This document shows, in pieces, positions 22,601 to 58,272 of a stretch of DNA of 64,000 nucleotides. The position numbers and the translations under genes are program-made. Positions within the stretch are counted from its first letter, which is position 1, and the number at the start of each line of letters is the position of its first letter. Source of the DNA: Fidelibacterota bacterium (GTDB lineage Bacteria; Fidelibacterota; Marinisomatia; Marinisomatales; SCKK01); assembly GCA_004124475.1 (NCBI GenBank), contig SCKK01000007.1:1-64000 (forward strand). The letters run 5' to 3'. Below the pieces are notes generated by a model. The model was given only the letters and a program-made list of their open reading frames with translations. It ran no database searches and was not told where the DNA came from.

Positions 22601-23434
22601 ATGAGTATTCATAAACTGCTGGCACAAGATAGAACATTGATCATGGGAGTTCTTAATGTTACCCCAGATTCTTTTTCAGATGGTGGGAAATTTCTCTCCC
22701 CATTACTGGCAATCGAACATACCTACAAAATGATTGAAGAGGGGGCTGATATTATCGATATTGGGGGAGAATCTTCCAGACCTGGATCAGATCCGGTATC
22801 AATTGAGGAGGAAGTAAATCGCGTTTTACCAATCATTGATGCGCTAAATGACAACATTAGTGTTCCGTTATCCATAGACACTTATAAATCAAAGGTAGCC
22901 CAAGAATCTCTAAAATTAGGGGTAGAAATTGTCAATGATATCAGTGGACTAAGGAGTGATCCTAAAATGGGTAAAATCATTTCCGAATATAAAGCATTCG
23001 TTATCATCATGCACATGAAAGGCACACCTAAAAACATGCAGGATAATCCTTATTATGATAATCTCCTGGAGGAAATTATTGAATTTTTCAACAGGCAGAT
23101 CCAAATTGCCGTTAATTCAGGAATACAAAAAAACAGGATTATTTTAGATCCTGGTATTGGTTTCGGGAAACGGATTGCTGATAATTTTGTGCTTTTGAAT
23201 TCCCTACAAAAGTTAGCAGATTTAGGTTACCCTATGTTAGTTGGTTCTTCCAGGAAATCGTTTATTGGGTTGACGCTGAAATTACCGCCAAATCAAAGGG
23301 TAGAGGGAACAGCGGCTACAGTGACAGCATCCATATTAAATGGTGCAAAAATTGTGAGAGTTCATGATGTAAAAGAGATGAAGAGGGTCGTTACTATCGC
23401 AGATTTAATCCTCAGGAATGGACAACAGTCATGA
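22601..23434 (+). CDS. folP: Dihydropteroate synthase
   Basis: Joins p-aminobenzoate to the pterin diphosphate in folate synthesis, and is the sulfonamide target. The 277-residue TIM barrel has MGVLNVTPDSFSDGG near the N-terminus. ADIIDIGGESSRPGS, PLSIDTYKSKVA, VNDISGL, IIMHMKGTPKNMQ, LDPGIGFGK and LVGSSRKSFIG follow. All family motifs are present. Its end overlaps the start of the diadenylate cyclase gene in an ATGA arrangement. folP next to cdaA is common in several phyla. Confidence 0.96.
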   Translation: MSIHKLLAQDRTLIMGVLNVTPDSFSDGGKFLSPLLAIEHTYKMIEEGADIIDIGGESSRPGSDPVSIEEEVNRVLPIIDALNDNISVPLSIDTYKSKVAQESLKLGVEIVNDISGLRSDPKMGKIISEYKAFVIIMHMKGTPKNMQDNPYYDNLLEEIIEFFNRQIQIAVNSGIQKNRIILDPGIGFGKRIADNFVLLNSLQKLADLGYPMLVGSSRKSFIGLTLKLPPNQRVEGTAATVTASILNGAKIVRVHDVKEMKRVVTIADLILRNGQQS

Positions 23435-24721: not shown

Positions 24722-24750
24722 CCCTAATTCCGATATTGAGCTAAGAAAAA

Positions 24751-24807
24751 CCTCCTAAGTGATTTAAATTATGATATTTGTAAGAACAATCAAAATCACT
24801 CAGGAGG
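24751..24807 (+). promoter_or_regulatory. Leader hairpin covering the transposase ribosome site
   Basis: CCTCCTAAGTGATTT (24751-24765) pairs with AAATCACTCAGGAGG (24793-24807) over 14 of 15 positions. The right arm contains the AGGAGG ribosome-binding site of the transposase (ATG 24817). In RNA this stem would hide the ribosome site, like the translation-blocking leaders known in IS10 and IS50. Confidence 0.65.
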
Positions 24808-24816
24808 TGAAAGATA

Positions 24817-26159
24817 ATGTCAGGAAGAATATTACCATTTTTAGTCACACAATCCAAAGAAAAATTAACGGATCGAGGTCATTTAGCCATTATTGATGAG
24901 TTCATAACCTGTATAGGATTTAAAGATCAGATTTCGAGGTTATTTCCTAAGCCAGGTTCTGGTAGAGGAATAGAGTCATATGACTATATTCGTACCCTAA
25001 TGTTTCATTTATTAGATGGCGGTCGTTATTTGGAAGATATTCAAGCCGTGAAGAACGATGTGGGGTTCAATGAGTTAATTAAGATAAAGAGGATGCCGGG
25101 TTCAGATGCGGTAGGAGACTGCCTGCCTGTCGGCAGACAGGGCTTCGTAGAACAGGAGGTTGGGGATTGACTTCTGCTGTGGACAAGGTGATTGATTACT
25201 CTGTAAAGCAATATTTAGCCAATTTTGAGAGTGATGAATTGACATTTGATCCGGATGCCACGTTAATTGTGTCGGAGAAGGGGGATGCTGAAAAGAGTTA
25301 TAAAGGGTTTACAGGCTATCACCCGATGTTGGGCTTTTTGTCTGATGGTGAGGGTAATCCAATGTGTTCATACGTGAAATTTCGTCATGGAAATGCATCC
25401 CCTCAGGTAGATATTCTGGAGTCATTACAGCATACGGAGACTTTGTTGAGACAGGGGCAACGAATAAAATACTTTCGGAGTGATAGTGCAGCTTATCAGT
25501 CAAAGATCGTTGATTACTGCAATGATCATGGGATTTATTACACGATTACGGCAGACATGGATGCATCGGTAAGGGACGCAATTTTATCTATCCCTTCAAA
25601 TAGTTGGAACCCTTTACACGACAGGAAAGATGGATTTAAGACTGGTAGGGAGGTTTCGGAGACAATCCATACCATGAATGAAAACAACCACAGTTTTCGA
25701 TTGATTGTTCAGAGGGAACTTATAGACGAGCCTTCATTGTTTGAATGTTGGGGGAATTACAAGTACTACTGTATCATCACCAACATCCCGGAGGAGGAAA
25801 ATAATAGTGAAGAGGTGATCTGGCATCACAATAGACGGGGAAATGCAGAGAAGTATATTGAGGATAGCAAGTATGGGTTAAAATTACGCTTTGTTCCTTG
25901 TGGACAATATGAGGCCACCACGATGTATTTTATGATTGGGATGCTAACTTACAATCTGATTAAGCTGATGCAGATATTGGTGCTACCGAAACGATGGTTA
26001 AAGAAGACCATTCTTGGGTTAAGAAACACCCTCTTTCGGATAGTAGCCAAGGTCACCAAAAGCGGTCATCAAATCAAACTACAGGTGAATAAAACTCTGG
26101 AAGAAATAGAGGAGTTAATATTAATACGGGAAAGAATTTATCAGTTATCCATTGCTTGA
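24817..26159 (+). pseudogene. IS1380-family transposase, frameshifted by a 20-bp palindromic insertion
   Basis: A DDE transposase read in two frames. The first frame (24817-25170) runs MSGRILPFLVTQSKEKLTDRG... to GSDAVGDC. The second, continuing to 26159, carries DPDATLIVSEKGD, SYKGFTGYHPMLGFL and YFRSDSAAYQSKIVDYC, typical of this family. Removing 20 bases at 25122-25141 (CCTGCCTGTCGGCAGACAGG) restores one frame reading GSDAVGDWLRRTGGWGLTSAV and gives about 440 residues, the normal length. The break is therefore one palindrome insertion and not gradual decay, since the rest of the protein looks intact. The copy is probably inactive. Confidence 0.9.
25122..25141. repeat. 20-bp palindrome inserted in a coding sequence
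   Basis: CCTGCCTGTCGGCAGACAGG is a near-palindrome (two mismatched pairs). It interrupts the transposase codon TGG, and its removal restores the frame. A sibling differing at two positions lies at 31070-31089. Confidence 0.88.
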
Positions 26160-26435
26160 GTATAGATGAAAAGAGGAAAAGTTATATTCCCTTCTTTGGG
26201 AAATAAGATAGGTACGCCTATTTTGGAAAAAACCATAAACAAAAACCCCTGATTTATTCTGTTGGAAGTTGATATTAGACTCGATTTTGTGATTCCAACT
26301 CCTTTAACCAGATAAAATGTACAATTATCGAAAAAATTCTAAAGAAGATCCTATTCGAACTGTCAATATCGGAATTTGGGTTGATGGAAACCACTTGATT
26401 AACTCATAGAATTACCTCAAATTTTGAATTACCCA

Positions 26436-27845
26436 ATGAAAAAGACATTACTGACACAGTGTGTCTTCCTACTATTGCTCATGAGATTGGAAGGCCAAAT
26501 AGATAGTTTATCTCTGTCAGGAGAGGAAAGTGTTGTCCTTCCTGGATTTGATTTATTTATTGCAACAGATTATTATCAATCAATTTTACTACGTTGGAGC
26601 GTTGAGCATCAAATTGGACATGGGAAAATATCCATTAAAAGAAGTGAAGACTTAAAGGGTGAGTTTGAAATGATTGCTCAAGTCGAGGATGATGTTTCAT
26701 TATGGAGGGATTGGGAGGTTGAAGTAGACAATGTTTATTTTTACCGGTTAATATGGGAAGATCCGTTTGGAAATACATTTGCCACATCAGAAAAAACGCC
26801 TCCTCTGGCATCTCCATTGCCTTTACCGGATGATTTATCCATTTTAAATTTGACTATGAAGCCGGATAGCGAGTTTCCCCTTAACCTATCTACAGAACAA
26901 AACGGACTGATACTTATTTCCACCCAAATTGATACTCAGATCTTTCAAGGAGAAATTTATGATAGCCTAGGGTCGGATATTATCCTGAAAAGTGATAGCA
27001 GTGAATTATTCCTTAAACCCGTCCAAAACCTTCATGACCTTTTCCATTATATTTTTATCCGTCCATTAATCTATTCATCTCCTTTTGTTTTAGAGAATAA
27101 ATCTATCCAATGGATTCAGTTAGACCAACGCCATCTGGGGCTATTTTCAGTACAGACCCAGGTTTTACCAGATTCAGGAACAGAAGCTCTCTTATCAAGG
27201 TTAGTTGATGACTTGGGTTTTTACGGATACGATCAATACTTCGAAGAACTTCATTATAAAGGGGTAGTAGGTACTTTGTATTGGGAAGACTTATCTTTTT
27301 CTACAACCAGAATTCTCAAAGACAACTTGACTAATATTTTGGAAGAAGGACTAACCCCACAAGTTGTCGATTATATTGAAAAGACATATTTAATCCTGAA
27401 TCCGCAAATTCATACCGAATCTATAAATATCAATGATGGAGGTAAATTAGAGACTGATTTACATTTTATTCTTCAAACCTGGTTAGAGGAATTAGAATCT
27501 CAAATTTTTTCTTATGAGAATCAGGATTCGATTCTTGTTTTAGATAACAAACCTAAAGTCCCAGAAATCTTTGCCCTCTATCAGAATTATCCCAATCCAT
27601 TTAATAATGAGACGACAATCCGCTTCGCTTTGTTGGAAGAGGGTCTGATAACACTGATTGTATTTGATGCAACGGGTCATGAAGTAGGCGTATTAATTAA
27701 CGAGGAATATTTATCTCCAGGGCATTATAGTTTTAATTGGAAAGGAGAGAATTACAGTAGCGGTATCTATTTCTTCTCCCTCAAAGCCTTTGTGGGTGAG
27801 TATGAAGTATTTGTAGATTCGAGGAAGATGATATATTTAAAATAG
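26436..27845 (+). CDS. Secreted protein with type IX-style C-terminal sorting domain
   Basis: A 469-residue exported protein from ATG 26436 (an in-frame TTG lies four codons earlier). A signal peptide (MKKTLLTQCVFLLLLMRLEG) precedes a fibronectin-like strand region (ILLRWSVEHQIGHGKISIKRSED). A middle part of unknown function follows. The last ~85 residues, ALYQNYPNPFNNETTIRFAL to the end, form the Por secretion tail / FlgD-like Ig fold seen on exported proteins of FCB bacteria. No catalytic motif was recognised. The gene begins 56 bases after the IS right end, so its original promoter may have been separated. Confidence 0.85.
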   Translation: MKKTLLTQCVFLLLLMRLEGQIDSLSLSGEESVVLPGFDLFIATDYYQSILLRWSVEHQIGHGKISIKRSEDLKGEFEMIAQVEDDVSLWRDWEVEVDNVYFYRLIWEDPFGNTFATSEKTPPLASPLPLPDDLSILNLTMKPDSEFPLNLSTEQNGLILISTQIDTQIFQGEIYDSLGSDIILKSDSSELFLKPVQNLHDLFHYIFIRPLIYSSPFVLENKSIQWIQLDQRHLGLFSVQTQVLPDSGTEALLSRLVDDLGFYGYDQYFEELHYKGVVGTLYWEDLSFSTTRILKDNLTNILEEGLTPQVVDYIEKTYLILNPQIHTESININDGGKLETDLHFILQTWLEELESQIFSYENQDSILVLDNKPKVPEIFALYQNYPNPFNNETTIRFALLEEGLITLIVFDATGHEVGVLINEEYLSPGHYSFNWKGENYSSGIYFFSLKAFVGEYEVFVDSRKMIYLK

Positions 27846-27870
27846 TATTCAGAAATCCGGAGATAAAGAT

Positions 27871-28407
27871 ATGACAGAAGATTTTAATGATGAATTCCAA
27901 CAGATGGACGAGCGGGAATTTGAAACAGAACACACAATGGGTAAGGCAGTTTCCATTGAAGCCCCCATAAGCAGTCTACAACTCCAGAAGATGATTACGG
28001 TGGATTTGGGAACAACGGTCGCTGATGTTGTTAAATTGATCCAGACTGAAGGGGTCGCATGTGTTCTGGTTACGGATCAAGGAAAACTTGTCGGAATATT
28101 CACTGAGAGGGATGTTATCCGAAAATTAGTGGGTAAAGATCTTGATCATACCCGGGAAATTGTGGATGACTACATGACACCAGATCCTCGCTTCTTGTTC
28201 ATAGACGATCCCATTGCGTACGCATTAAATCGAATGTATGATGGTGGTTACCGACACGTTCCAATTATAGATACTGATCATAAACCCGTAGGAATTGTGG
28301 GAATATTGGATATCATCAGTCATTTAGCGGTCTATTATTCTGACGAGATTATGAATTTACCTCCCGATCCCTTACGGGTTGCCCAAAAACGACCAGAAGG
28401 TGGATAA
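27871..28407 (+). CDS. CBS-domain pair protein
   Basis: A 178-residue cytoplasmic protein consisting of two CBS motifs after a charged N-terminal ~40 residues. CBS1 covers about 40-105 (VDLGTTVADVVKLIQTEGVACVLVTDQGKLVGIFTERDVIRKL). CBS2 covers about 110-165 (MTPDPRFLFIDDPIAYALNRMYDGGYRHVPIIDTDHKPVGIVGILDII). Such pairs bind adenosine nucleotides and sense energy state. No enzyme or transporter domain is attached, so the partner is unknown. It starts 25 bases after the sorting-domain gene and could share its transcript. Confidence 0.9.
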   Translation: MTEDFNDEFQQMDEREFETEHTMGKAVSIEAPISSLQLQKMITVDLGTTVADVVKLIQTEGVACVLVTDQGKLVGIFTERDVIRKLVGKDLDHTREIVDDYMTPDPRFLFIDDPIAYALNRMYDGGYRHVPIIDTDHKPVGIVGILDIISHLAVYYSDEIMNLPPDPLRVAQKRPEGG

Positions 28408-28739
28408 AATTTATTGTTTGTCAATGAGACTTCGTGAACACTTACCTCATATTTTGCAATTCCATTTCGTCAGGATGTCACTATCAAAAAGGATATATGA
28501 AGTCTACGCACAGCATCCTTGTCCGCAGGATCCTTTTAGGGCATCCTGTGGATAAGGTAAACGGTATAAGAGACAAGTTGAAGAAATGGAATCTGTTAGA
28601 CTTAATCCCTGATCACTTGAACAAATAAAATGAATTTTTTGGAAATACGAAGGATAGATACTGTGCCTGACTATATCCCCATACCATATAACTTATACCC
28701 CACACCCCTATTCTGTCTCCATAGATGGATAGTTAGTAA
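28408..28739. other. Intergenic region with one hairpin repeat
   Basis: About 330 bases. CCTTGTCCGCAGGATCC (28517-28533) faces GCATCCTGTGGATAAGG (28541-28557), an imperfect palindrome of the CCGCAGGATCC family. A 64-codon frame at 28434-28628 runs through this repeat and is not supported as a gene. Confidence 0.55.
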
Positions 28740-29477
28740 ATGCGAAACTTGAGTTACTTAATATCTATTATTAGTCAACAAAAACTTATTTTTATCATAT
28801 TAGTGTTTTTCCTGTTTGGCTGTGCTGCTCACCCAACGGTAGCCTATAAAACCATGAAAAAGGGGGAAAAGCTTTACGGCTACTCTTTTTCCATTGAGAA
28901 TGTTTTTCCTGTTCTTTTTTATCGATATGGAATCTCAGAGATCAGTGACGTTGGTTTTCGTTTGGGTTTGCCCATATATGGTAGCGGATTCGATTACTCC
29001 AGAATTTTATTCCAAAGCGGACAAAAAAGAGATGTCTTAAATATTGCCTGGTCGTGGACACCCAATTCCAACTTCGATTTTACATATTATAAATTCACTG
29101 AAAAGAAAAAACGCCCTGGCATTGTTACCTACTGGGGTTTAAGAGGGATGTTCATACCCAAAGGAATTACGGGGGGTCGAAGTTTAAGAATTGGATTACT
29201 ACTTGGATCAAACCTCAAAGGTAAATTTGGATATGAGATCGGTTACTTTCACGATGCTGCCGGTATTCCAATAAAACAGATATTTACTCCTAAATTTGAT
29301 GATGCTAATCCCGACTGGGACGACCGATATAAACAGTATCCCCTAACTTCAGATTTTGGATTTCCGACTGAACATGCACGAATTACAGGGCTATCTATTC
29401 GTTTGAATTTCTTCATCAATACTAGTAATAATAAGAAATTATCAAAAGGTGATTCGGAATCTGTTGATAATAATTGA
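28740..29477 (+). CDS. Hypothetical lipoprotein
   Basis: A 245-residue protein I do not recognise. The N-terminal membrane segment ends in the lipobox LFGC|AA (cysteine near residue 28), so it should be lipid-anchored. The rest alternates aromatic and polar residues in short strands (FRLGLPIYGSGFDYSRILF, WSWTPNSNFDFTYYKF, GGRSLRIGLLLGSNLKGKFGYEIGYF). That suggests a small beta-barrel or beta-sandwich facing the outer membrane. The C-terminus is asparagine- and serine-rich. GTTAGTA lies directly upstream of ATG 28740, so this might be another integron-like cassette start, but that is weak. Confidence 0.7.
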   Translation: MRNLSYLISIISQQKLIFIILVFFLFGCAAHPTVAYKTMKKGEKLYGYSFSIENVFPVLFYRYGISEISDVGFRLGLPIYGSGFDYSRILFQSGQKRDVLNIAWSWTPNSNFDFTYYKFTEKKKRPGIVTYWGLRGMFIPKGITGGRSLRIGLLLGSNLKGKFGYEIGYFHDAAGIPIKQIFTPKFDDANPDWDDRYKQYPLTSDFGFPTEHARITGLSIRLNFFINTSNNKKLSKGDSESVDNN

Positions 29478-29792
29478 TGAGTCTACTCCGAAAAGGGTTT
29501 AAACAAAAGGTGAGTGGGTAATTTACATTGAATTCCCTTGGTAATTTAACACTTTATCCCTTCTATCTACATTTCACTGCGATAGACAGGATTATTTTCA
29601 AGTATACCCCTAAAGTGGGTAATGATTTCATCTATCTGTCGTTAGGGACGATAGACAGGTCAATTCTAACAAAAATGACCTTTTCGGATACGACTCATTG
29701 ATCATAAAATACACCTTATCCATAATATATTCCATATATTTTGTTGTTAGCACTATAATTAAATGATTCAACAAATTAATTAAGGGGGAAGC
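29478..29792. other. Intergenic region with palindromes and cassette boundary
   Basis: About 315 bases. It contains an imperfect palindrome CTATCTGTCG...CGATAGACAGG at 29632-29659, a candidate attC at 29664-29752, and the cassette boundary GTTAGCA at 29746-29752. No gene was seen. Confidence 0.5.
29664..29752 (+). other. Candidate attC site upstream of the protease cassette
   Basis: TTCTAACAAAAATG at the left and CATATATTTTGTTGTTAGCA at the right can pair in part across an 89-base region. The outer core motifs (CTAAC/GTTAG) are in the positions expected for R'' and R'. The interior is AT-rich and less regular than the downstream site, so this is a weaker call. Confidence 0.4.
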
Positions 29793-30794
29793 ATGCGCAA
29801 GACGATAACCACTTTTGTAATAATCTTCATTCTTCATAGCGGAATTTCTATGGCATCTGGAGAAAACAAGAAAAGTTGGATTGATCTTGTTCGTGAGGCT
29901 ACGGTTGCTTTGGGTACCGTCAAACAAGCAAAAGTCCAAGATGAAAAGGGAGAAAAAACTGAAAAGAATATTTTTGCCGTTGTGGGTACTGGCGTCATCC
30001 TTGGAATACCAGACGATCAATCTAAAACACCATGGATAGTCACCGCTAAACACGTTTTTCATGACCCCACAAAAAATTGGGATCCTGATACAATTCAACT
30101 TCGATTTGCTTGGTTTGAAGAAAAAGGTATTGATGAGTATCTCGGTATCAAAATCAATCTTAAGAAGAATGGGAAGCGCTTATGGACACCTCACCCCAAT
30201 AACCAAGTTGATCTTGCTGCTATGCCCCTAATAATTCCGAAACAAGAAGCTGGACGAGATTCTCTCCCAATTATCCCATTAGGCAACTTTGCAACTGGAG
30301 CTGATCTATATGAAGGTGCTGCTGTGTTGATATTTGGTTTCCCTGGTGCAGTCGGTCCATCATTCTGGACTAAAGCTTTGGTTAGGTCAGGCATCATTGC
30401 ATGGGTTCACCCATCTGCACCAGAGGAACAACCATTACTCATTGACGCGATGGTATTCCCTGGTAACAGTGGAGGTCCAGTTTTTCGTATTCCAACCGGA
30501 ATTGATCGGTATGGTAATTTCATCGTCGGCGGGAAACCATCTTTTCTTGGAATAGTCTCACAAGGACGACGTCAGGCTGTTCCTTTAACAGCCGGGGGTA
30601 AAGAGATAGAGCTTCAAGGACCCGCAGGCCCAATGAAAATTGTCAGTGAAGATTGGATTGGTGTGGGTATAGTGGAACCAGCTTCAAAAGTGCTCGAACT
30701 CTTGAAGTTCGCTAGTGAAAACAAACCATAATTTGAACGGAAGTGCTAACAAAAAAATCCAGCGAATGCGTAATACGCCCCGCTGATTTTAACG
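29747..30794 (+). mobile_element. Integron-type gene cassette carrying a serine protease
   Basis: The segment starts at the G|TTAGCA boundary (29746-29752) and ends at G|TTATGC (30794-30800). Its own R'' box TGCTAAC (30744-30750) is the exact complement of its first bases plus G (GTTAGCA). That relation is required when a cassette is excised as a circle. It holds one gene on the + strand with short flanks, and the attC begins 12 bases after the gene. No integrase is in the window, so this would be a lone cassette or part of an integrase-less cluster. Confidence 0.65.
29793..30731 (+). CDS. Secreted trypsin-like serine protease
   Basis: A 312-residue protein with a signal peptide at about 1-22 (MRKTITTFVIIFILHSGISMA). 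It has a trypsin-like catalytic triad: H87 in VTAKHVFH, D140 in NQVDLAAMPL, and S226 in FPGNSGGPVF. The oxyanion GNSGGP box is canonical for the S1/HtrA-type fold. There is no PDZ domain, so it is not a full DegP/HtrA. GGGGGAAGC precedes ATG 29793. It lies alone inside the cassette-like segment. The target is unknown, and a stress or antagonism role is only a guess. Confidence 0.85.
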   Translation: MRKTITTFVIIFILHSGISMASGENKKSWIDLVREATVALGTVKQAKVQDEKGEKTEKNIFAVVGTGVILGIPDDQSKTPWIVTAKHVFHDPTKNWDPDTIQLRFAWFEEKGIDEYLGIKINLKKNGKRLWTPHPNNQVDLAAMPLIIPKQEAGRDSLPIIPLGNFATGADLYEGAAVLIFGFPGAVGPSFWTKALVRSGIIAWVHPSAPEEQPLLIDAMVFPGNSGGPVFRIPTGIDRYGNFIVGGKPSFLGIVSQGRRQAVPLTAGGKEIELQGPAGPMKIVSEDWIGVGIVEPASKVLELLKFASENKP

Positions 30795-30800
30795 TTATGC
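30744..30800 (+). other. attC recombination site
   Basis: A 57-base imperfect palindrome bounded by TGCTAAC and GTTATGC. AAAATCCAGCG pairs with CGCTGATTTT, leaving one bulged base as attC hairpins do. An inner GCGT-AAT-ACGC hairpin forms the tip. Size and organisation match short integron attC sites. Confidence 0.65.
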
Positions 30801-30833
30801 ATTTTAATTTTTTCAAGAATAAGAGAAAATGAT

Positions 30834-30908
30834 ATGAAAGAAACATTAAATGCAATTTATGAAAAAGGAGTTTTTAGATCTTTAAAACCTCCTCAAATAT
30901 TAGCTTGA
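30834..30908 (+). pseudogene. Truncated DUF104-like (AF2212 family) antitoxin remnant
   Basis: A 24-codon frame, MKETLNAIYEKGVFRSLKP followed by PQILA and a stop. The first 19 residues match the conserved start of AF2212/DUF104 antitoxins (M..TIEAIYENGVFRPLKP), and then the similarity ends abruptly. No PIN toxin follows. It sits right after the attC boundary, where the next cassette's gene would begin, so it is probably the stub of a truncated toxin-antitoxin cassette. Confidence 0.6.
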
Positions 30909-30927
30909 TCTATTCATCAGCCGCTAA

Positions 30928-30943
30928 CCCCGAATATTCGGGG
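30928..30943. repeat. Perfect palindrome CCCCGAATATTCGGGG
   Basis: A 16-bp perfect inverted repeat flanked by CGCTAAC and GTTACGC. It belongs to the CCCGA...TCGGG family. Confidence 0.75.
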
Positions 30944-31069
30944 GAAGTTACGCTAATGTTTTTCCGCAGGATGCTACGCATTTTCATTTTAGGTGACTAA
31001 AAAATGTTCCAAATTTCGTAAAATCTGTGCGATGATGTGTTCCCCATAATAATTTATTTTTCTTACCTT

Positions 31070-31089
31070 CCTGCTTATCGGCAGACAGG
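31070..31089. repeat. 20-bp palindrome, sibling of the transposase insertion
   Basis: CCTGCTTATCGGCAGACAGG differs at two positions from the element inserted at 25122-25141. It lies upstream of the transsulfuration-type gene. Confidence 0.8.
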
Positions 31090-31142
31090 TGTGTTGCTTT
31101 GTGTTTCTTAGTGCCATCGTAACTATAAAAAAAGGAGATAAT

Positions 31143-32285
31143 ATGAGATTTGACACAAAAGTGGTACGGGCAGGGATCAAACCGGATCCTACGACTGGCG
31201 CAATTATTCCACCTATTTATCAAACAGCTACTTATGTGCTTGAAGAAGTAGGGAGAGATAAAGGATTTGATTACACCCGTTCTGCAAATCCTACCCGGCA
31301 GCTTTTAGAAGAAAACCTGGCTGCCATAGAAGGGGGAAAATACGGAGTCTGTTTTGCCAGCGGCATGTCTACGGTGGATGCCTGTTTAAAACTGTTGGAA
31401 GCCGGTGATCATGTCGTCTGTTCAGATGATGTTTATGGGGGAGTTTCCCGTCTTTTCAATAATATTCTCAATAAATATGATTTGAAGTTTACCTATGTGG
31501 ATACATCGGACCCGGATCAAGTAGTTGAAGCGATTCGCCCTGAGACAGTGATGTTGTGGATAGAAACGCCGACAAACCCTCTACTCAAAGTGACTGACCT
31601 TGAAGCAATGGGCGTGATTGCAAAGGAACACACTTTGTTGTATGCCGTGGATTCTACCTTTGCGACCCCGGTTTTCCTTCGTCCGTTGGAATATGGGGCG
31701 GATATGGTTGTCCATAGTACCACAAAATATTTAAGTGGACATAACCAGCTCATCGGAGGGATTGTGATTACCAACCAGGAAGATATTTTTGACGAAATGA
31801 AATTTGTCCAGAAAACCATTGGTGCGGTTCCCAGTCCATTTGACTGTTGGCTCACATTATTGGGCGTAAAAACTTTGCACCTTCGTATGGCAAGACATGC
31901 TGAAAATGGGCAGGTTGTGGCGGAATTTCTGGAGAACCACCCGAAAATAGCAAAAGTTACCTATCCGGGATTACCCTCACATCCCCAGTATAACGTAGCA
32001 ATAAAACAGATGTCGGGTTACAGTGGTATGATTTCATTTGAACTCAAAGGGGGCATTGCGGCAGGAAAGAATTTGATGAATAATGTCAAGTTATGTTTAC
32101 TTGCGGAAAGTCTCGGGGCAGTGGAAACAATGATTACTCACCCCGCCACAATGACCCACGTGGATGTACCAAAAGATGAGCGTTATGCGAGGGGACTCAC
32201 CGATGGGTTGGTGAGGATTTCTGTGGGTATTGAAGATCCCGAGGATATTGTTAATGATCTTGGACAGGCTCTCGAATTTGCATAA
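31143..32285 (+). CDS. Cys/Met-metabolism PLP enzyme (cystathionine synthase/lyase type)
   Basis: A 380-residue fold-type I PLP enzyme of the transsulfuration family. ATG 31143 was chosen because AAAGGAGATA precedes it. A longer in-frame extension to 31089 runs into the palindrome and lacks conservation. IIPPIYQTATYV, the YTRSANPTRQLLE region, FASGMSTVDACL and IETPTNPLLKVTDLEA are typical. The PLP lysine is in HSTTKYLSGHNQLIGG. The C-terminal SLGAVETMITHPATMTH and GLVRISVGIEDPEDI complete the fold. The motifs suit cystathionine gamma-synthase, beta-lyase or gamma-lyase, and I cannot separate these by eye. A paralogue follows. Confidence 0.9.
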   Translation: MRFDTKVVRAGIKPDPTTGAIIPPIYQTATYVLEEVGRDKGFDYTRSANPTRQLLEENLAAIEGGKYGVCFASGMSTVDACLKLLEAGDHVVCSDDVYGGVSRLFNNILNKYDLKFTYVDTSDPDQVVEAIRPETVMLWIETPTNPLLKVTDLEAMGVIAKEHTLLYAVDSTFATPVFLRPLEYGADMVVHSTTKYLSGHNQLIGGIVITNQEDIFDEMKFVQKTIGAVPSPFDCWLTLLGVKTLHLRMARHAENGQVVAEFLENHPKIAKVTYPGLPSHPQYNVAIKQMSGYSGMISFELKGGIAAGKNLMNNVKLCLLAESLGAVETMITHPATMTHVDVPKDERYARGLTDGLVRISVGIEDPEDIVNDLGQALEFA

Positions 32286-32601
32286 TAATCCTCGTTATCA
32301 ATGTTGTCAATATCTCAAAAAATAATCTATAATTTGAACTCGAAACCTCAGTGTTGTGGCAACCAAGATCATCAAAACCACAACATTGAAAGAGGTAGAG
32401 ATTTTTCACCTGAAAATAGCTTTAAGCATGGAGTACGGAGTATGGAGAATTGCCTGCCCCGTACGGAGCTTGTCCCGAAGTTTCGGGATGTGTGTCTCAT
32501 TTCGAATGATATTTTATCAGACTTAGAACAGACGGTGTGAAAAGCTCGACTTTTTTTGTCTTAATACCTTAAAAATAGTTGTTCACGTAGAAGGTCAGAT
32601 T
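32286..32601. other. Intergenic region between two PLP enzymes
   Basis: About 315 bases. GTGTTGTGG (near 32352) and CCACAACAT (near 32380) form a hairpin. CCCCGTACGGAGC lies near 32458, and TCCCGAAGTTTCGGGA is at 32473-32488. A 79-codon frame over this stretch is not supported as a gene. Confidence 0.5.
32473..32488. repeat. Dispersed palindrome TCCCGAAGTTTCGGGA
   Basis: 16-bp inverted repeat of the dispersed family, the same core as at 3273 and 8903 with one central base pair changed. Confidence 0.75.
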
Positions 32602-57985: not shown

Positions 57986-57996
57986 TGTTTGAGAAT

Positions 57997-58160
57997 ATCA
58001 GTTTTGTAGGTTTCCTGACTTATGCCTCATAGGATAACTTCCGCCTTCTCATCCCGATTATTTTCGGAACAATGGCCTTCACATTGGGGAAGGAAGCTCC
58101 TAAGCAATTACAGTAGCGGGGCTGTACCCGATTTTCACGGGTTTCTCTCTCAAAACTGAT
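57997..58160 (-). promoter_or_regulatory. Cobalamin riboswitch
   Basis: On the minus strand ATCAGTTTTG (58151-58160) pairs with CAAAACTGAT (57997-58006) as the closing stem. Inside lie AGCCCCGCTACTGT (58110-58123), AGGCGGAAG and AAGTCAGGAAACCTAC (the B12 box, 58006-58021), in the order of the AdoCbl class. It precedes the TonB receptor gene by about 57 bases. The regulated gene should be turned down when cobalamin is plentiful. Confidence 0.93.
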
Positions 58161-58272
58161 CTGTCAATAGGCAGGTAAACTTATCTAATTATCGACGTTG
58201 ATGTCAAGGCTTTTACCTTGATTTGCTGGAAGGGTCAGAATAAATTTCCACAGCTTTACTTGAACCAAATTT

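Follow-up and report, generated by a model that had tools for sequence, protein, structure and literature searches.

Integron gene cassettes are known to integrate outside of integrons at genomic attG sites, a route described by Loot et al. (2024, Nat Microbiol 9:228-240; as cited in PMC12901181 and PMC12444791). The off-target activity of the integron integrase (IntI) requires little more than a GNT sequence, extendable to GTTRRRY (PMC10127599). In genome surveys, IntegronFinder accepts single-attC calls as possible true positives, and 22% of integrase-bearing RefSeq genomes carry more than one integrase (PMC9024848).

In the window (i.e., the whole 64-kb stretch analyzed here, located on contig C76 of a 3.15 Mb genome of 77 contigs, G000), we identified a region that is very probably a complete integron gene cassette, present as a lone insertion in the ordinary chromosome (Table 1). 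A preliminary description of this DNA had proposed an integron-type cassette, and this is upheld by both the score of an attC covariance model and an empty site in a same-genus genome (see below). The three sequences it quoted (at the left core, R'', and R') lie exactly where it placed them, and its 57-base bulged palindrome ending in GTTATGC is borne out by position and by DNA folding. As also described, a single ORF fills the cassette alone and in one direction. It is oriented toward the attC site, starts 46 bp past the left boundary, and ends 12 bp ahead of attC. The left core and R'' are complementary at 7/7 positions, and GTTAGCA occurs only twice on the forward strand of the window (at 23212 and 29746). 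No attI, intI, or second attC was found at the locus, which lies in intergenic DNA of an ordinary kind, and the covariance model recognized one attC in the window. The window was correctly noted to lack an integrase; all intI copies sit on contigs other than that of the window, and the locus does not constitute a complete integron (intI-attI-array). To the earlier reading, we add that the cassette is outside any integron array and alone in the chromosome.

Table 1. Features at the cassette locus (window positions).
Feature	Position	Strand	Details
Integron gene cassette (very probable)	29747..30794, 1048 bp	+	Starts one base past G29746 (TTAGCA...) and ends with the G of the R' box in attC (...AACG)
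Left boundary core GTTAGCA	29746..29752	+	G^TT crossover; matches the reverse complement of R'' exactly
Trypsin-like serine protease, 312 aa	29793..30731	+	Pfam PF13365; triad H87/D140/S226
attC site, 57 nt	30744..30800	+	R'' TGCTAAC 30744-30750; R' GTTATGC 30794-30800
Right half of target site (GTTATGCAT)	30794..30802	+	G001 empty site is ATTG^TTATACAT
~220-bp repeat, not part of the cassette	29470..29705	.	27-nt terminal inverted repeats CTACTCCGAAAAGG.../...CCTTTTCGGATACGACTC

The set of genomes examined contains a single genome of the same genus (G001). To either side of the insertion (window 26382-29496 and 30821-32463), it is collinear with the window at about 95% DNA identity, but the cassette itself is missing; the upstream gene (28740-29477) has a 95% identical orthologue there. 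The empty site in G001 reads ATTTTATTG^TTATACAT, with the gap falling at the predicted G^TT crossover, such that the window junction of ...TTCCATATATTTTGTTG^(cassette)^TTATGCAT corresponds to ...TTCCATATATTTTATTG^TTATACAT in G001. When 11,000 pairs of a left and a right breakpoint were compared, the pair whose two pieces best reproduced the G001 junction was 29746|30795 (22/24), which is the junction predicted from the attC rule, and the runner-up pairs (20/24) share its left breakpoint; the crossover is resolvable no finer than the shared GTTA, and the right junction rests on eight bases (seven of them matching), followed by a 16-base indel. These 16 bases (TTTAATTTTTTCAAGA, window 30803-30818), next to attC and directly after TTATGCAT, are missing in G001 and may be either a later indel or a part of the insertion event. 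At the empty locus in G001 (L050), neither the covariance model nor a structural scan found an attC site, and no intI was found there. The target is neither an attI nor an attC site, contains G^TT, and its core (GTTATRC) is one position off GTTRRRY. The comparison of orthologous loci suggested in the preliminary description thus came out in favor of a cassette, as the same-genus genome is without the protease and its gap coincides with the base that was predicted.

Several other elements lie close to the cassette. The ~220-bp repeat just upstream is in the opposite orientation in G001, recurs at C52:26476-26670 and as fragments in other places, and resembles a MITE or an invertible segment. 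Further upstream, an insertion sequence (window 24722-26381) encodes a DDE transposase (PF13701, IS1380-like) split into ORFs of 117 aa and 330 aa; its insertion is probably recent, given that it is absent from the collinear place in G001. Downstream, a short ORF (window 30833-30907, MKETLNAIYEKGVFRSLKPPQILA), which is also short in G001, looks on reading like a DUF104-type antitoxin truncated after its start.

The direction of the event was most plausibly a gain, as read from sequence comparison with a single sister genome and not formally polarised. We prefer a gain because the protease has only distant relatives (28–32% identity, with no match above 32%) in 245 genomes of the phylum, and none in G001. 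An ancestral cassette that G001 lost by precise excision, with no gain in the window genome, is unlikely. IntI excision would leave an identical junction, and two intact intI genes are present in G001; against this, no protease of this kind other than the distant relatives is found in the order or the phylum, so that a single gain is the simpler account. We consider it more improbable still that the cassette is the remnant of a decayed array (CALIN-type), in which a former integron at this place has lost its other cassettes, attI, and intI. Decaying integrons do occur in this genome, where attC sites lie close to a broken intI (C65, C13, C16), and intI fragments are common. However, G001 has at this place only a short stretch of plain intergenic DNA, free of attC and intI, between collinear flanking genes, so that an array would need to have disappeared without a trace in both species.

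The attC site itself displays the expected architecture of a folded recombination site, with an R''/R' stem. Its stem (AAAATC(C)AGCG / CGCTGATTTT) carries one extrahelical C and is followed by an unpaired spacer (AAT/CC) and a terminal stem (GCGT-AAT-ACGC). Using DNA folding parameters, the 57-nt site yielded −11.2 kcal/mol for the top strand and −12.6 kcal/mol for the bottom strand (z −4.1 and −4.8, respectively), with 0/200 shuffles folding as well. The bottom strand is hence slightly more stable than the top, as expected for attC sites. The boxes depart somewhat from consensus: two positions of TGCTAAC (R'') do not fit RYYYAAC, and one position of GTTATGC (R') does not fit GTTRRRY. Structural attC scans either accepted too many sites or, owing to these off-consensus boxes, passed over the one in the window, and a trained covariance model was used instead.

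The training set of this model (R1) comprised 11 attC sites close to intI genes of this genome, all of them outside the window; one candidate (C71:24180-24330) was omitted, as its left box was apparently out of register. In the training sites, 78% of cells were paired, compared to 63% in shuffles (0/500 as high) and 28–42% in slid versions. With this approach, positions 30744-30800 scored 35.2 bits over the full model length (1-58; E 8.5e-7), and the next-best place in the window reached only 14.5 bits; in a search of the whole genome, the site ranked seventh (E 4.2e-5), noting that these E-values are rough and that the training sites were chosen by the analyst with similar criteria. In the covariance-model check proposed in the preliminary description, the site thus scored well, with a model trained within the same genome. 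A near-identical attC core occurs at C16 beside an intI remnant (AAATCCAGCGGACGC...GCCGCTGATTT; ATCTAACAAATAAATCCAGCGGACGC...GCCGCTGATTTAGGCGTTGGGC), and further near-repeats of the window core are found at C44 and in the same-genus genome (G001:C71:604-660). An Rfam scan of the window returned no attC family match at the cassette site. Separately, a cobalamin riboswitch lies on the minus strand at window positions 57988-58194. That the locus is no integron cassette at all, and instead a hairpin that arose by chance behind an ordinary gene gained by horizontal transfer, or a small element (a transposon or MITE), is scarcely credible despite the off-consensus boxes, the MITE-like repeat immediately upstream, and the lack of an Rfam match, given the model score derived from independent attC sites, the left core that complements R'' with the crossover falling at G^TT, and the further attC sites in both species that share its sequence type.

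A search for intI in the remainder of the genome, also proposed at the outset, revealed that integron integrases are abundant outside of the window. Four are intact (C57, C71, C54, and C50; loci L017-L020), scoring 407–432 bits against a curated cut-off of 265, and retain the Arg / His-x-x-Arg / His / Tyr catalytic region and the IntI-specific insert (assigned by eye). Another two are broken (C65 and C13), and intI fragments are also present; three of the integrase genes are close paralogues. At C50, five attC sites follow one another divergently to intI, and their R'' boxes match the core that precedes them (e.g., TCCTAAC with GTTAGGA, and TTCTAAC with GTTAGAA). Integrases are patchy in the order, found above the cut-off in 12 of 61 genomes, with the window genome having the most. 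Set against the 22% of integrase-bearing RefSeq genomes that carry more than one, four intact and two broken integrases in one genome looks unusually high. Dispersed attC sites without an adjacent integrase occur in both species. At one of these places in G001 (C48, L074), a lone attC (1501-1559), with about 690 bp next to it, accompanies a vapBC-like toxin-antitoxin cassette outside any array. The flanks of this cassette are not shared with G000, nor are those of the lone attC at C44 of G000 shared with G001.

Taken at face value, the cassette most likely entered by recombination between attC and a genomic site of the attG type. An excised, circular cassette would have its attC fold on the single-stranded bottom strand, and an IntI, probably encoded elsewhere in the same genome, would pair this site with a chromosomal G^TT site (ATTTTRTTG^TTATRCAT). 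Exchange between G and TT would then place the 1048-bp cassette into the target in a single orientation; the cassette core (GTTAGCA) would come to lie at the left and the target core (GTTATGC) at the attC end. Given no Pc lies near, expression of the protease would be limited to its own or a neighboring promoter. A promoter scan found sites no more numerous than in shuffles, and a TATAAT at 29754-29759 was rejected as a promoter, having no matching −35 element. The anatomy suggests that the cassette would be excisable, and it may still be mobile at present. The route itself is already known and published; the present locus is a clean, natural case of it in a little-studied lineage, which we regard as well supported.

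The cargo of the cassette is a trypsin-like serine protease, preceded by a ribosome-binding-like sequence (AAGGGGG). It matches Trypsin_2 (PF13365) at 49.9 bits (cut-off 27.6), and its catalytic triad is invariant across four homologues. The predicted structure is of moderate confidence (pTM 0.71, pLDDT 62), and the best PDB matches of this model are the protease domains of Deg9, DegS, and DegP (E 2e-8), with no PDZ domain found in the protein. The N-terminus (MRKTITTFVIIFILHSGISMASG) contains a strongly hydrophobic, signal-like segment at residues about 4-21 by hydropathy, which is missing in the relatives of the protease. The preliminary description had named the protein as secreted; the hydrophobic N-terminus stands and is the sole basis for that label, and export is likely on these grounds. 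Homologues are few, with only two distant ones (28% and 31%) in the named genome collection and none in plasmids or phages, and no attC model match was found at any of the four homologue loci examined (0/4).

A comparison with the PADLOC profiles revealed a match to PDC-S45 (trypsin-like) over residues 61-307 (E 1.1e-20), which PADLOC lists only as a candidate phage-defence protein and to which the protease is distantly related. In addition to this match, the homologues in Splendidivirga and a Nitrospinae MAG have the DAMVFPGNSGGPV motif in common, whereas the window protein, unlike the homologues, bears the N-terminal signal-like segment. Two relatives adjoin genes of a type often seen in defence islands, HNH-like (L051) and RelA/SpoT-like (L052), as named by sequence reading. 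A defence role for the protease is thus a reasonable guess, owing to the PDC-S45 match and to two relatives lying next to genes that are often in defence islands. A periplasmic location would be unusual for a defence protein, and a housekeeping or scavenging role as an exported protease is equally open.

From these observations, integron recombination outside of arrays seems to be a way by which this lineage takes genes into its chromosome. That single-cassette capture at dispersed chromosomal sites could be a main route of gene gain, with cassettes forming dispersed islands of one gene each that carry exported or defence-like enzymes such as this protease, is a tentative proposition that we hold as possible and rather doubtful. 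To our knowledge, natural, base-exact entries of cassettes into an ordinary chromosome are few compared to experimental ones, and a trypsin-like cargo related to a defence candidate is not usually listed among cassettes. The present case combines an empty site in the same genus, a genome that itself encodes the responsible enzyme family, and an unusual cargo, and offers a testable claim on gene gain in a poorly known lineage. Lone cassettes without a nearby integrase also escape default integron searches, which need two attC sites.

Set against the known systems, the locus resembles a canonical cassette in its R''/R' cores, its bulged hairpin with an extrahelical base, unpaired spacer, and terminal stem, its one ORF in the attC orientation, and its left core complementary to R'' with a G^TT crossover. 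It differs in lying outside any array with no adjacent attI or intI, and in an R'' that is two positions off RYYYAAC. It shares with CALIN and single-attC elements an attC without an adjacent integrase (PMC9024848); however, CALIN are viewed as degraded integrons and need, by default, at least two attC sites (PMC9024848), whereas the empty site here points to insertion rather than decay. It also resembles attG insertion as cited in PMC12901181 and PMC12444791, with recombination of attC and a chromosomal site that is neither attI nor attC, a G^TT crossover, and a single chromosomal cassette. While the attG work is cited for experimental insertions in E. coli (PMC12444791), the event described here would be a natural one, seen between two uncultivated species and in an intergenic target.
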